NCBI GenBank assembly: GCA_009781475.1
Contig: WQYB01000013.1
Span: 1-48,650, forward strand
Origin: Treponema sp.
GTDB taxonomy: Bacteria > Spirochaetota > Spirochaetia > Treponematales > Breznakiellaceae
Direction: 5' to 3'
Length of the DNA stretch: 48,650 bases
Positions within the stretch are counted from its first letter, which is position 1. Each line of letters begins with the position of its first letter. Made by a program: the position numbers and the translations under genes. Below, piece after piece: positions 471 to 28,825 of the stretch. The notes beneath the pieces were generated by a model, which saw only the letters and a list, made by a program, of their open reading frames with translations, ran no database searches and was not told the DNA's origin.

Positions 471-977
471 TTAGTTGGTTTTTGTAAGAATAAATTCTGA
501 GAAGTTAATAGTGATAGGACCCTGAGACTGCGGACTTACGTTAGCCAGAATAAAAGTATTCTGTCTTGAGCCTGCGCTGGATGCTCTGTTAATAAGGGTA
601 ATTGTTACTTCTGCTGATACAGGCTGACCTGCTCTAGCTGCAGGAAGTACTGCTCCGCCGTTATTCGCCATTGGGATTTCTCCGCCTCTTGGTTGTCTCC
701 AAGAAAGAGTCTGCCAAGGAGTCATGTCTGCAAAGCCAACGCCGATACCGTCTACGTCACGGCTAACAGTGTATGTAACTTTCAGTGTAAAAACATCGCC
801 TCTCTGTAAGCGATAACCATGTAAAATGGTATCCCTAATTTCTGCCTGGAAGTTGTTTCCGGGCGGATTCCAAGGAAGTGTAAAAGAAACCGGTCCTAAT
901 GAACCGCCGGGTGTCTGGGCTACTGCAAAGCCTGCTAACAGACAAACGCCCAAAAGAATCATGATTGCTTTCTTCAT
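471..977 (-). CDS. Secreted beta-sandwich-like protein, paralogue 1
   Basis: A 168-residue protein with a clear type I signal peptide (cleavage expected between A20 and Q21, 'FAVA-QTPGGSLG'). The mature part is rich in alternating hydrophobic residues (GDVFTLKVTYTVSRDVDG, LSWRQPRGGE) and ends in 'INFSEFILTK', a pattern like the closing strands of carbohydrate-binding jelly rolls. I do not recognise a named family. Two paralogues follow at 1169-1702 and 1734-2237; the middle of this protein is almost identical to paralogue 3. It has its own upstream repeat/promoter region and its own terminator. GGAGGAG precedes the ATG. A surface or periplasmic glycan-binding role is inferred from fold-like features and the nearby GH5 operon. 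Confidence 0.75.
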   Translation of the reverse strand: MKKAIMILLGVCLLAGFAVAQTPGGSLGPVSFTLPWNPPGNNFQAEIRDTILHGYRLQRGDVFTLKVTYTVSRDVDGIGVGFADMTPWQTLSWRQPRGGEIPMANNGGAVLPAARAGQPVSAEVTITLINRASSAGSRQNTFILANVSPQSQGPITINFSEFILTKTN

Positions 978-992
978 AAAGAATCTCCTCCA

Positions 993-1008
993 ATAAATGG
1001 TAATTTAT
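993..1008. repeat. Recombinase-type palindromic site S1 (centre GGTA)
   Basis: ATAAAT-GGTA-ATTTAT, a 6-bp inverted repeat around GGTA, directly upstream of the paralogue 1 ribosome-binding site. It shares the TAAAT-N4-ATTTA core with sites at 2255, 3315 and 3424, and its centre GGTA with the site at 3315. Its right flank continues into the 25-base sequence shared with 3434-3458. Confidence 0.6.
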
Positions 1009-1050
1009 ACACATGATAACATCGAACTTGACAGAAGGCAACATTTTTTT
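1003..1050 (-). promoter_or_regulatory. Probable leftward promoter region, duplicated at 3434-3480
   Basis: Bases 1003-1027 are identical to 3434-3458 (25 bp), and similarity continues to a shared poly-T run (about 1046 and 3475). On the minus strand it reads CTGTCA, 17 bases, TGTATA followed by AAAT, giving a weak -35/-10 just before site S1 and the GGAGGAG of paralogue 1. The promoter call is inference from position and weak boxes; the 25-base repeat itself is certain. Confidence 0.45.
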
Positions 1051-1120
1051 GATATTTTATGAACTTATTTGCTTTTTTGGTCTTTTTGAGCCTTTTTCGT
1101 GCCTTATATGGTAGAAACAT

Positions 1121-1149
1121 AAAAAAAAGCCCCGAAATGCTCCGGGGCT
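1121..1149 (-). terminator. Rho-independent terminator of paralogue 2
   Basis: On the minus strand AGCCCCG, an 8-base loop, CGGGGCT, then a run of T. Arms 1143-1149 and 1128-1134, tail 1121-1128. It lies 20 bases after the stop codon of the gene at 1169-1702. Confidence 0.85.
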
Positions 1150-1168
1150 CTCAAAAATTGGTCTAGAA

Positions 1169-1702
1169 TTAGTTCTTTGTGAGAACGAATTCTGTAAAGG
1201 AAATAGTTGCAGGCCCTTTGACGCCTGAACCTAATGTTCCATGTCTACCCTCACCTCGTGATTCAAATACAAGTGTATTTGCTAAAGGAGTTGCATTGGA
1301 AGCATTTCTAAGAAGTGTAATTTGCACTTCAGCGCTAATGGTCTGACCTGCTCTTGGTGTAGGAATTATAACATTTGAATATTCTCCGCCTCTTGGCTGA
1401 TTCCAGCTAAGTGCTCTCCAATAGTTTGCGCCCGGTGTTTGGTCTGCGAAACCAATACAAAGCGGGTTTTCAAGGTCACGATCAATTGTAAAGGTTACTT
1501 TAAGAGTAAACCTGTCGCCGTTCATGAGCCTGTAGCCGTTCATCAAGTTGGGAACTCTTACGTCACCCTGATAGCCGGTGCCGTACTGAAAATTGTCTTT
1601 TAACACGAGCTGAAACGCGCCCAATGAACCGCCGGGTGTCTGGGCTACTGCAAAGCCTGATAACAGACAAATGCCCAAGATAACGAAAATCGCCTTCTTC
1701 AT
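1169..1702 (-). CDS. Secreted beta-sandwich-like protein, paralogue 2
   Basis: A 177-residue protein, signal peptide MKKAIFVILGICLLSGFAVA followed by QTPGGSLG. The start at 1702 is chosen because GGAGGAG sits just before it and the signal peptide begins there; a longer frame exists but would run into the next gene. The mature part (GDRFTLKVTFTIDRDLENP, RALSWNQPRGGEYSNV, ATISFTEFVLTK) follows the same strand pattern as its neighbours but is the most diverged of the three. It lies 31 bases downstream of paralogue 3 with no terminator between, so the two are probably co-transcribed. Function unknown; secreted glycan-binding protein is an inference. Confidence 0.75.
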   Translation of the reverse strand: MKKAIFVILGICLLSGFAVAQTPGGSLGAFQLVLKDNFQYGTGYQGDVRVPNLMNGYRLMNGDRFTLKVTFTIDRDLENPLCIGFADQTPGANYWRALSWNQPRGGEYSNVIIPTPRAGQTISAEVQITLLRNASNATPLANTLVFESRGEGRHGTLGSGVKGPATISFTEFVLTKN

Positions 1703-1719
1703 AATTAATCTCCTCCAAG

Positions 1720-1735
1720 ATAAATATTGAATTTT
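1720..1735. repeat. Degenerate site S2 at the paralogue 3 / paralogue 2 junction
   Basis: ATAAAT-ATTG-AATTTT. The left arm and centre are identical to the site at 2255-2270; the right arm is degenerate and runs into the stop codon of paralogue 3 (1734-1736). The distance between the two sites is 535 bases, one gene plus its leader, as expected for a cassette border. Confidence 0.4.
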
Positions 1736-2237
1736 AGTTCTTTGTGAGAACGAATTCCGAGAAATTAACTGTAATTGGACCAAGATTTTGCGCCTGTCCA
1801 TTTTGCATAATAAAAGTATTTTGCCTTGAGCCTGCGCTTGATGCTCTCTGAAGCAATGTAATTGTTACTTCTGCTGATACAGTCTGACCTGCTCTAGCTG
1901 CGGGAAGAACTGCTCCGCCTAGATTTTCCGCAATATTTTCTACGTTTCTCGGTTGTCTCCACGAAAGCGCCTGCCAAGGAGTCATGTCTGCAAAGCCAAC
2001 GCCGATACCGTCTACGTCACGGCTAACAGTATATGTAACTTTAAGCGTAAAAACATCGCCTCTCTGTAAGCGATAACCATGTAAAATTGTGTCTCTGATT
2101 TCAGCCTGGAAATTGCTTCCGGGTGGGTTCCAGTTTAATGTAAACGAAACTGGTCCTAATGAACCGCCGGGTGTTTGGGCAACTGCGAAGCCTGATAACA
2201 GACAAATGCCCAAGATAACGAAAATCGCTTTCTTCAT
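1734..2237 (-). CDS. Secreted beta-sandwich-like protein, paralogue 3 (mosaic)
   Basis: A 167-residue protein with the same signal peptide as paralogue 2 (KKAIFVILGICLLSG) but a mature region nearly identical to paralogue 1 (FQAEIRDTILHGYRLQRGDV, then TLKVTYTVSRDVDGIGVG). Its 3' end (EFVLTKN) again matches paralogue 2. The gene is therefore a mosaic of its two neighbours, a sign of recombination or gene conversion. GGAGGAG precedes the ATG at 2237. Upstream lie site S3 and the divergent recombinase gene. Export is well supported; the ligand is unknown. Confidence 0.75.
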   Translation of the reverse strand: MKKAIFVILGICLLSGFAVAQTPGGSLGPVSFTLNWNPPGSNFQAEIRDTILHGYRLQRGDVFTLKVTYTVSRDVDGIGVGFADMTPWQALSWRQPRNVENIAENLGGAVLPAARAGQTVSAEVTITLLQRASSAGSRQNTFIMQNGQAQNLGPITVNFSEFVLTKN

Positions 2238-2252
2238 AATTAATCTCCTCCA

Positions 2253-2272
2253 AGATAAATATTGATTTATCT
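2253..2272. repeat. Recombinase-type palindromic site S3 (centre ATTG)
   Basis: AGATAAAT-ATTG-ATTTATCT, a perfect 8-bp inverted repeat with a 4-bp centre, between paralogue 3 and the recombinase gene. Its 16-base core (2255-2270) is repeated exactly, in direct orientation, at 3424-3439, so the two copies bracket the recombinase gene. Confidence 0.65.
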
Positions 2273-2274
2273 CA

Positions 2275-2314
2275 TTCCTGCCGACAAAGAATTTATATTT
2301 TTAAAAGGCAGGAA
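2275..2314. promoter_or_regulatory. Inverted repeat enclosing the recombinase leader
   Basis: TTCCTGCC (2275-2282) and GGCAGGAA (2307-2314) form a perfect 8-bp inverted repeat with a 24-base AT-rich loop. The right arm contains the AGGA that should act as ribosome-binding site for the ATG at 2318. Folding of the mRNA, or protein binding, could therefore limit recombinase synthesis (inference). Confidence 0.5.
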
Positions 2315-2317
2315 AAA

Positions 2318-3310
2318 ATGAAAGACAAATTTATTACAGAGATCTTAGCAGATATGGCAGTTATGCTTACTAATGTTCAATTAGAAAAGTTGCAGCAGAC
2401 ACTGTCTCATAGTCTGTTAAATATCGAACTCAGCGAAAGCATAATCTTTAATCCAGTTGCAGATAACGGTAATGATTTTTTATTGGAGGTTTTTATTTCT
2501 GCAAAAAGGATAGAAGGCTGTTCGGAGAAATCTCTTGTTTATTACAATGCTGTAATTCTTCATATGATAAACAGCGTTAAAAAACCAATACGCATAATTA
2601 ATACTGACGATTTACGCCGTTATCTTGCTGATTATCATAGAGAGCGCAATTTAAGCAAAGTAACCGTCGATAATATGCGCCGTATTTTTTCTAGTTTTTT
2701 CGGCTGGCTGGAGGATGAAGACTATATCTTAAAAAGCCCTGTACGGCGGATTCATAAAATAAAAACAGAAAAAACAATCAAAGAAACTATAACAGACGAA
2801 GGGCTGGAACTGCTCAGAGATAACTGCGGCGAAATCAGGGATCTGGCGATAATCGACCTGCTTTCTTCTACAGGAATGCGTGTCGGAGAGCTTGTACGGT
2901 TAAACCGTGATGATTTTAATTTTTACGAACGTGAATGTGTGGTTTTTGGCAAGGGCGGCAGTGAGAGGGTAGTGTATTTTGACGCTCGGACAAAAATTCA
3001 TCTATTGGATTATTTAAACAGCCGGATAGACGGGAATCCCGCAATGTTTGTGTCACTTGTTATGCCGTTTGACAGGCTTAAAATAGGAGGAGTAGAAACT
3101 CGTATCAGAGAAATCGGTAAACGGGCAGATTTATTCAAAGTTCACCCTCATAAGTTTAGGCGGACATTGGCTACACGGGCAATAGACAAGGGAATGCCGA
3201 TAGAACAGGTTCAGCATTTGCTTGGACATGCAAAAATAGATACAACAATGCACTATGCAATGGTAAATCAGGTAAATGTTAAGAATTCGCACCGTAAATA
3301 CATAGGATAA
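2318..3310 (+). CDS. Tyrosine recombinase / integrase, XerC/D-like
   Basis: A 330-residue protein with an N-terminal SAM-like core-binding domain (about 50-150) and a C-terminal catalytic domain. The catalytic set is complete: R188 in GMRVGEL, K212 in GKGGSERVV, H278 and R281 in HKFR, H304 in LLGH, and Y313. The stretch between R188 and H278 is short, so the extra helix region that defines integron IntI integrases is absent. The gene is divergent from the secreted paralogues and bracketed by the direct repeats S3 and S5, with a third perfect palindrome just after its stop. No phage genes lie nearby. It most likely acts on these local sites; a general Xer role is less likely given this setting. 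Confidence 0.9.
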   Translation: MKDKFITEILADMAVMLTNVQLEKLQQTLSHSLLNIELSESIIFNPVADNGNDFLLEVFISAKRIEGCSEKSLVYYNAVILHMINSVKKPIRIINTDDLRRYLADYHRERNLSKVTVDNMRRIFSSFFGWLEDEDYILKSPVRRIHKIKTEKTIKETITDEGLELLRDNCGEIRDLAIIDLLSSTGMRVGELVRLNRDDFNFYERECVVFGKGGSERVVYFDARTKIHLLDYLNSRIDGNPAMFVSLVMPFDRLKIGGVETRIREIGKRADLFKVHPHKFRRTLATRAIDKGMPIEQVQHLLGHAKIDTTMHYAMVNQVNVKNSHRKYIG

Positions 3311-3313
3311 GTG

Positions 3314-3333
3314 AGCTAAATGGTAATTTAGCT
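3314..3333. repeat. Recombinase-type palindromic site S4 (centre GGTA)
   Basis: AGCTAAAT-GGTA-ATTTAGCT, a perfect 8-bp inverted repeat three bases after the recombinase stop codon. It has the same centre as site S1 at 993-1008. It is too AT-rich and lacks a T-tract, so it does not look like a terminator. Confidence 0.6.
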
Positions 3334-3422
3334 GACAGGCATTTTGCATAATTAGCGGCAGAATTGCAGTTTTATTCTTATTTTGTGGGTTCTTTTTTTA
3401 TTTTGCAAAAAGAGGCGAAATA

Positions 3423-3440
3423 TATAAATATTGATTTATA
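3423..3440. repeat. Recombinase-type palindromic site S5 (centre ATTG)
   Basis: TATAAAT-ATTG-ATTTATA. The inner 16 bases (3424-3439) are identical to site S3. It is followed on the right by the same 25 bases that follow site S1, so paralogue 1 and this position share one ancestral right-hand context. Confidence 0.65.
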
Positions 3441-3503
3441 CACATGATAACATCGAACCTGCGCAAAGGCAACGTTTTTTTTACTTTTTTACAAAAAAAA
3501 TGA

Positions 3504-27471: not shown

Positions 27472-28825
27472 CTAAAAACCCATGCCAGGCGGCATTTGCA
27501 TTCCCTGCGGCATACCGGGAATACCTTTGCCCTTTGCCATCTTTTTCATCATGCCGCGCATTTTTTCGAACTTTTTTAATAGGCGCGAAACTTCTGCAAC
27601 AGATGTTCCGGAACCTCTTGCGATTCTGCTTCTGCGCGGCGGTCCTATTATCAAGTGATTATATCGTTCTTTAAATGTCATAGAACTCAATATCGCTTCT
27701 TGGCTTTTTAATTCGGCTTTGTCTATATCATCTTCGCTTATTTGTCCCTGCATGCCGGGAATCATCTCCAGCATTTTTTGCAGAGAACCCATTTTTTTCA
27801 TTGCGCGTATTTGGTTGAGCCAGTCATCGAGCGTAAAGTTTTCTTTCTCCATTTTTTTCTGGAGTTCCAGCGCTTCTTTTTCGTCAATTACTTCCTGCGC
27901 TTTTTCTACAAGGCTGACAACATCACCCATGCCGAGAATACGGCCTGCAATGCGCTCAGGGTGAAAAGGCTCAAAGTCTTCGGGTTTTTCTCCGGTGCCT
28001 GTAAACTTAAGCGCTTTTCCTGTAACGGTTTTGAGCGAGAGAGCAGCGCCGCCTCTTGTATCAGAATCAAACTTGCTTAAGATAACTCCGGTAAGTCCGA
28101 TTTTTTCATCAAATGTTTTTGCAATGTCTGCGGCGGCTTGTCCGGTCATCGAATCTGCGACAAGGAGCATTTCATCGGGTTTGACGGTATTTTTAAGACG
28201 AGAAAGTTCGTTCATCATCGGCTCATCAATTTGCATGCGGCCTGTCGTGTCGATGATGACAGTATCGATCATATTCTTTTTTGCCCACGCGATTGCATTC
28301 TGATAAACTTTTACGCTGTCTTTTGCGCCTTCTTCTTTATGGACAGGAATACCTATCTGTCCGCCGAGTACAGCCAGCTGTTCCATAGCGGCAGGACGTA
28401 AGGTCGCATGCGATGAGCATAGGTTTGCGGCCTTCTTTTTTTAGGCGAAGCGCAAGTTTTGCCGCGCTTGTGGTTTTTCCTGAGCCCTGCAATCCAAGTA
28501 CAAGAATCGAAGAAATTACATCAGGACCGCGAAGTTTTAAAGCGCGGCTTGCAGGATCTTCATCTCCAAGAAACGATACAAGTTTGTCATGAACAATTTT
28601 AATAAATTGCTGCCCGGGATCTACCGAGCGCAGAACTTTTTCGCCTTTTGCTTCTTCTATCGTTGAATTTACAAAACGTCTTACAACACGCAGGTTTACA
28701 TCGGCATCGAGCAGTGCCATTTTAATCGCTTCTACCGCGTCTTCGATATTTTTTTCGTTAATTGACGCTTTGCCTGTAACAAAACGCATAGCGTCGGTGA
28801 TTTTTCCTGTTAGTTTTTCAAACAT
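27472..28825 (-). pseudogene. ffh: Signal recognition particle protein Ffh, with a 2-base frameshift
   Basis: Two adjacent frames together give a complete Ffh of about 451 residues: N domain and P-loop (LGLQGSGKTTSAAKLA) in 28337-28825, then G domain (DTTGRMQ, GEKPEDFEPF) and Met-rich M domain in 27472-28386. At 28396-28398 (plus strand GGACGTAAGG) two bases are missing relative to the expected ...DLTRPAAMEQ; restoring CG (GGACGCGTAAGG) joins the frames exactly. Ffh targets membrane proteins to SecYEG and is essential, so a sequencing or assembly error is more likely than true loss. GGAG precedes the ATG at 28825, which overlaps the upstream GGDEF gene by eight bases. Confidence 0.9.

Follow-up and report, generated by a model that had tools for sequence, protein, structure and literature searches.

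The first 48,650 bases of a Treponema sp. contig (WQYB01000013.1), hereafter the window, carry a tyrosine recombinase gene flanked by short palindromic sites, which lie at the borders of three genes for secreted paralogues, named here A, B and C. The window is the start of contig C13 in an assembly (G000) of 216 contigs and 3.29 Mb, 93% complete. The recruitment of a known pair of recombinase and site to a new cargo is well supported; the explanation as a whole, in which a shufflon recombinase of a restriction-linked family now rearranges the promoters of secreted-protein genes and no longer the parts of hsdS, is given a probability of roughly 60%. Both the cargo and the layout are unusual, in that sites have a promoter-like block on one side and the leader of a secreted paralogue on the other, and no hsd gene was found beside the recombinase. 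In the literature, covered in part through titles and abstracts, no case of this recombinase family acting on the promoters of secreted proteins was found.

The exact form of the site, TAAAT-N4-ATTTA, is present four times within 2.45 kb and nowhere else in the window. Dinucleotide shuffles of positions 993-3440 (n = 5000) yielded 0.019 sites on average and 2 at most; when up to one mismatch is allowed, the window contains 13 sites against 12.3 expected, indicating that the signal is carried by the exact form only. The four spacers make up two pairs in the same orientation, GGTA-GGTA (class 1) and ATTG-ATTG (class 2), a pattern met in 0.12% of the draws of four spacers from the 42 sites located elsewhere in the genome. 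Chance AT palindromes were ruled out by the shuffles and the paired spacers. A first-pass annotation of this DNA had described four clear sites within about 2.5 kb, in two spacer classes, in one orientation and at gene borders, and the exact search and the shuffles bear this out for the sites found; the positions then given were off by 1-2 bases, so that the degenerate fifth site starts at 1721 and not at 1720. Genome-wide, the motif is present at 46 places, four of them in this locus, while its backward-read control is present at 45. The loose motif is thus equally common across the genome, a possibility raised at the outset, and the local cluster is untouched by that. Both genome places of the GGTA spacer are in the locus, together with two of the four ATTG places; the other two ATTG sites fall inside open reading frames (ORFs) on C12 and C40 and, there being no other GGTA site, further targets of these two spacer classes in the genome were discarded. 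No Rfam match at the gathering threshold and no tRNA were found in the window.

The recombinase had been annotated as a catalytically complete tyrosine recombinase. Indeed, it contains R188, K212, H278, R281, H304 and Y313, which we take, from the motifs of such enzymes, to be the expected catalytic residues. Homologues were found at 492 genome loci, the best 80 of the 492 being 61-80% identical; viral contigs contain 20 homologues at 58-72% identity, with one partial at 54%, and phage records gave four matches at E 1e-60, devoid of annotation. The homologue of Streptococcus suis (L047) is 72% identical to the window recombinase. Among 104 homologue loci (L031-L134, of which L036, L048 and L060 repeat other loci), a locally built HsdS profile matched in 96, indicating that the family is that of the recombinases of phase-variable type I restriction systems, and on sequence grounds the window enzyme is a member. 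The eight loci lacking this match are L032/L036, L033/L060, L053, L054, L055 and L062, i.e. six distinct ones, and L055 keeps a match to HsdR. The loci of two other genomes of the genus, G002 and G018, begin at or inside the recombinase gene, so that their upstream side lies outside the HsdS scan. In the window, where the contig ends 993 bases to the left of the first site, HsdS, HsdM and HsdR gave no match; HsdS (PF01420) is found in two genes of the same assembly, on C42 and C44, not beside sites, and has no match in G018 (71% complete) or G002 (67% complete). A tree of 127 recombinases places the window sequence among the restriction-linked ones, with G002 and G018 beside it and a weak support of 82 for the three-way clade. 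Between the window and G018 recombinases dN is 0.14 and dS 1.39; for most other pairs the synonymous positions are saturated.

Two copies of a 66-base repeat each begin at a site (994 and 3425) and run outwards from it, and each contains a promoter-like sequence that reads towards the genes; the sequences, named P_A and P_C, share hexamers and spacing. In the case of gene A, promoter-like block, site, leader and gene follow one another without interruption. In the case of gene C, the same series is broken by the recombinase segment, which lies between sites 2256 and 3425. Besides the terminator-like hairpin after gene B, one beyond gene A (427-443) was listed on the + strand only, although on visual inspection it is followed by T's on the - strand as well. 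The coordinates of all these features are collected in Table 1.

Table 1. Features of the recombinase locus, in window coordinates
Feature	Position	Strand	Remarks
Gene A, secreted, signal-peptide-like start	471..977	-	adjoins P_A in the sequenced arrangement
66-base site-plus-promoter repeat, copy 1	993..1058	+	
G1, class-1 site TAAAT-GGTA-ATTTA	994..1007	+	between P_A and the gene A ribosome-binding site; precedes the A ATG by 16 bases
P_A, promoter-like TTGCCT-17-TATCAT, TG before the second hexamer	1013..1041	-	consensus match
Terminator-like hairpin after gene B	1125..1152	-	divides the C-B unit from that of A
Gene B, secreted paralogue behind gene C	1169..1702	-	followed by the terminator-like hairpin
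Degenerate class-2 site	1721..1734	+	altered in the right arm, with an unchanged left arm and ATTG spacer; in the gene B leader, meets the gene C stop codon
Gene C, secreted paralogue, CBM4-like predicted fold	1734..2237	-	
T1, class-2 site TAAAT-ATTG-ATTTA	2256..2269	+	in the gene C leader; precedes the C ATG by 18 bases and the recombinase ATG by 62
Predicted hairpin	2275..2314	+	in the recombinase leader, with the ribosome-binding site inside its 3' arm; folded with no shuffle control
Tyrosine recombinase, 330 aa	2318..3310	+	family of phase-variable type I restriction loci
G2, class-1 site TAAAT-GGTA-ATTTA	3317..3330	+	7 bases past the recombinase ORF
Segment x, between G2 and T2	3331..3424	.	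predicted to swap places with segment P_A-B-C
66-base site-plus-promoter repeat, copy 2	3424..3489	+	82% identical to copy 1
T2, class-2 site TAAAT-ATTG-ATTTA	3425..3438	+	adjoins promoter-like P_C
P_C, promoter-like, hexamers and spacing as P_A	3444..3472	-	parted from gene C by the recombinase segment

In the mechanism that we propose, the recombinase would recognise the TAAAT and ATTTA arms and would join sites having an identical four-base spacer. Since all four sites have the same orientation, recombination would excise circles and would not produce inversions; since the circle bearing the recombinase holds one site of each class, reinsertion would be possible at the other class. Enumeration of the same-class recombinations of the four perfect sites, leaving out the one at 1721, gave two arrangements that are complete and another two in which a circle has been excised. 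In state 1, the one sequenced, P_A adjoins A and the recombinase segment parts P_C from C-B; in state 2, P_C would adjoin C-B and the recombinase segment would part P_A from A. With exactly two complete arrangements, the predicted outcome is an either/or switch, between A on one side and C plus B on the other. A two-state promoter toggle working by excision and reintegration is the best reading of the parts and is considered rather probable; that recombination occurs, takes the circle route, needs matching spacers and changes expression is what we infer from them. More tentatively, and with somewhat less than even confidence, the recombinase gene itself may be the moving piece and the spacer classes its addresses, with a strict either/or choice between secreted carbohydrate-binding proteins; a family of fixed arms and free spacers would then have been redirected from methylation specificity to promoter choice.

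Sites of this frame were found around homologous recombinases. In the 104 loci the exact site is present 135 times, against 6 for the backward-read control, and 52 of the loci have none. Counted up to a distance of 4 kb from the recombinase in 127 loci, some of them near-identical, exact sites number at least two in 40 loci, one in 7 and none in 80; an absence of sites around the homologues, named at the outset as a refutation, does not hold for the family as a whole, though these 80 loci had no exact site. Every spacer has a partner in 37 of the 40 multi-site loci, inverted in 32 and direct in 5 (the window, L129, L133, L185 and L186), while the spacers are unpaired in L033 (G018), L101 and L112. 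An exact site lies no more than 300 bases before the recombinase in 29 loci and, in 16 of these, 61-70 bases before its ATG; the corresponding distance in the window is 62. Some site-less loci use another arm, e.g. CAAAT-N4-ATTTG in genomes of the order to which the window belongs. This variant was observed in the related restriction loci L184 (G109), L161 and L166-L169; in L184 the recombinase is present twice, and each of two spacer classes is represented by three sites.

The closest layouts are those of L185 and L186, from two genomes of the window's taxonomic order, where the elements follow as class 1, class 2, recombinase, class 1 and class 2, as in the window. The TAAAT-N4-ATTTA frame, the presence of two classes (CAGA and TAGT in these loci), the single orientation and the order are shared, with recombinases 60-61% identical to that of the window; differently from the window, hsdS and hsdR are found beside the sites, and each locus has one extra copy of the class-2 TAGT site. 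A further difference is a gene pair beside their sites that, read by eye, we take to be toxin-antitoxin-like.

Within the genus, contig C83 of G018 contains, in this order, the recombinase, a GATA site, an ATTG site, a gene that we take to be aroA, a CIA30-like lipoprotein gene and a presumed cellulase-like gene, the last and aroA being named from our own reading of the sequence; a promoter-like block follows the ATTG site. Another contig of the same genome, C127, has a paralogue whose ATG is preceded, at 14 bases, by a GATA-class site; a promoter-like block and part of another paralogue come next. Thus class 1 has one spacer at both of its places in each genome, GGTA in the window and GATA in G018, and ATTG is common to the two. 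The related genome G020, where no recombinase match was found at E 1e-40, holds a single copy of paralogue, near-site (AAAATGATAATTTA, one mismatch), one promoter-like block and aroA; a pair of neighbouring sites on its contig C33 lies inside one ORF and was taken as chance. G002 yielded a single TGCG site, which precedes the recombinase by 62 bases and is separated from the contig end by nine; after the recombinase gene no exact site was found. The counts of sites against the backward control are 14/8 in G018, 8/12 in G002 and 31/21 in G020, with no clear genome-wide enrichment in any of the three.

Several results weigh against the proposed switch. DNA searches of the window's own assembly found the sequenced arrangement only, and the layout is complete in one genome and partial in one other. 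No second ATTG site was found in G018, so that L033 is counted as unpaired within its contig, and the adjacency of C127 and C83 in that genome would follow from the gene order of G020. Exact sites within 4 kb are lacking in 80 of the 127 homologue loci, and the clade formed by the window, G002 and G018 is weakly supported (75/86) when 30 of the recombinases are placed in a tree. Matches to the promoter consensus are present in the region at chance number (7 found, 7.3 expected), and the weight therefore falls on the duplication of the block and on its conservation. The - strand of the recombinase segment showed no terminator-like site, so that transcription from P_C may continue into C and the 'off' state may leak.

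Among the other explanations, a relic appears unlikely. A restriction shufflon would in this case have lost its hsd genes, leaving a recombinase and sites that switch nothing, in agreement with the lack of adjacent hsd genes, with the degenerate site at 1721 and with L053, L054 and L062, where neither an HsdS match nor exact sites were found; however, the expected catalytic residues are present, dN is well below dS in the comparison with G018, and four perfect sites with paired spacers lie beside the leaders of a gene family unlinked to restriction, while in G018 a matching pair is found with a different spacer (GATA). A self-moving recombinase circle, that is a selfish segment inserting at site-like leaders with incidental effects on the neighbours, is considered quite unlikely. 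The recombinase and segment x would indeed circularise with one site per class, and in G020, which gave no match to the recombinase at E 1e-40, the corresponding leader contains a near-site; on the other side, two of the three genus genomes lacking an HsdS neighbour (window, G002 and G018) have the recombinase before the same CIA30 and cellulase-like genes, and no second close copy was found in the window's own genome.

The likeness to a miniature integron, proposed in the first-pass annotation, did not survive the model searches. The recombinase scores 60.8 bits with the dedicated integron-integrase model TIGR02249, against a cut-off of 265, and an integron was rejected on this ground, even though the broadly named NF040815 ('site-specific tyrosine recombinase/integron integrase') was passed with 228.1 against 220, as the sole NCBIfam model. 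A recombinase and a promoter gathering promoterless cassettes would account for C and B lying in series with a site before each, that of B being degenerate, and for their near identity from the site to the end of the signal peptide, followed by divergence; but the sites are 14-base palindromes, a single gene family is present, and sites flank the recombinase on either side, placing it within the movable DNA, so that this explanation is very improbable. Still less credit is given to the palindromes as operators of a regulator that controls the secreted-protein genes and the recombinase: the sites do adjoin promoter-like sequences and sit in leaders, but homologous shuffling loci use this very frame as their repeat, and pairing of the spacers within loci would be needless for an operator.

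The cargo of the proposed switch, entered in the first-pass annotation as secreted-protein genes with two or three tandem paralogues, consists of A, B and C, whose products have signal-peptide-like starts. All three genes are on the - strand; identity to C amounts to 83% for A and 57% for B, and no Pfam or NCBIfam match was obtained for any of them at E 0.1. A structure model of C, built from a three-sequence alignment (pLDDT 78.9, pTM 0.73), has its best structural matches in CBM4 modules (best E 9.8e-6, TM 0.42-0.46); since other beta-sandwich proteins, capsid proteins among them, also match below E 0.001, the CBM4-like fold is moderate evidence. Related proteins are fused to CIA30 domains in L139, L140 and L141, and the locus adjoins a CIA30 protein and a gene that from its sequence is presumably cellulase-like. 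A, B and C may plausibly have a carbohydrate-binding role. Between the site and the end of the signal peptide (1620-1733 and 2155-2268) B and C share 95% identity, after which they diverge; it looks as if a block made up of leader and signal peptide, with the site as its limit, had been copied.

As regards the recombinase, its predicted leader hairpin perhaps limits the amount of enzyme made from read-through. The same kind of hairpin was predicted in L031, L035, L038, L041, L046, L047 and L052 (19 leaders folded, no shuffle control). Three homologues, L053, L054 and L062, are 70-77% identical to the window enzyme and, having neither an HsdS match nor exact sites nearby, are apparently orphans. 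Another group, L175-L182 from eight genomes of the order, forms a separate clade of recombinases with about 50% identity; neither an HsdS match nor an exact site was found in their short flanks, and two larger stretches were read. Far from the locus, the overlapping ORFs at 27472-28386 and 28337-28825 split what we take, from our own sequence reading, to be ffh, the gene of a signal-recognition protein, perhaps through an assembly or sequencing error.

The recruitment described here connects a much-studied device of epigenetic shuffling with another task. If the locus is active, the address of such recombinases, namely the spacer, and their cargo would be exchangeable, and uncultured spirochaetes would gain a route of phase variation for secreted, possibly carbohydrate-binding, proteins in the form of a simple two-state switch. 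Paired N4 within TAAAT and ATTTA arms also provide a sequence rule for finding other recruited loci.

Compared with known systems, the locus shares with integrons a tyrosine recombinase beside a short series of genes, but it has 14-base sites at gene borders and one gene family. The Vpma locus of Mycoplasma agalactiae is closer in its cargo: the tyrosine recombinase Xer1 lies by a family of surface proteins, with sites in the untranslated leaders, and a promoter changes partner (PMC2268961). Vpma, as described there, uses one promoter and inversions (PMC2268961), whereas two promoter-like copies and direct sites are found in the window. For the site itself the counterpart is SsuCC20p, a phase-variable type I restriction system of S. 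suis, whose published repeats are TAAATCATCATTTA and TAAATGATGATTTA and where deletion of xerD froze the hsdS alleles, indicating that shuffling needs the recombinase of the locus (PMC10790761). The four sites of L047 match the printed repeats; the 14-base frame TAAAT-N4-ATTTA and a homologous recombinase are thus common to the two systems, and the upstream site lies 61 bases before the recombinase ATG in the SsuCC20p type and 62 in the window. SsuCC20p differs in having inverted sites with one spacer (CATC/GATG) in an hsdS locus, whereas the window has direct sites with two spacers, in leaders of secreted genes and with no hsd. For the arrangement, the counterpart is tvr (SpnIV) of Streptococcus pneumoniae, in which two types of repeats in the same orientation surround the recombinase TvrR and excision and reintegration proceed via circles that carry it (PMC6265443). 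Differently from the window, the cargo of tvr consists of hsdS parts, the repeats measure about 18 and about 70 bp, and a toxin-antitoxin pair and an attenuator limit the recombinase (PMC6265443). The first-pass annotation knew of no described system of this form; the site frame is that of the SsuCC20p repeats, and the two classes of direct repeats reproduce the tvr arrangement.

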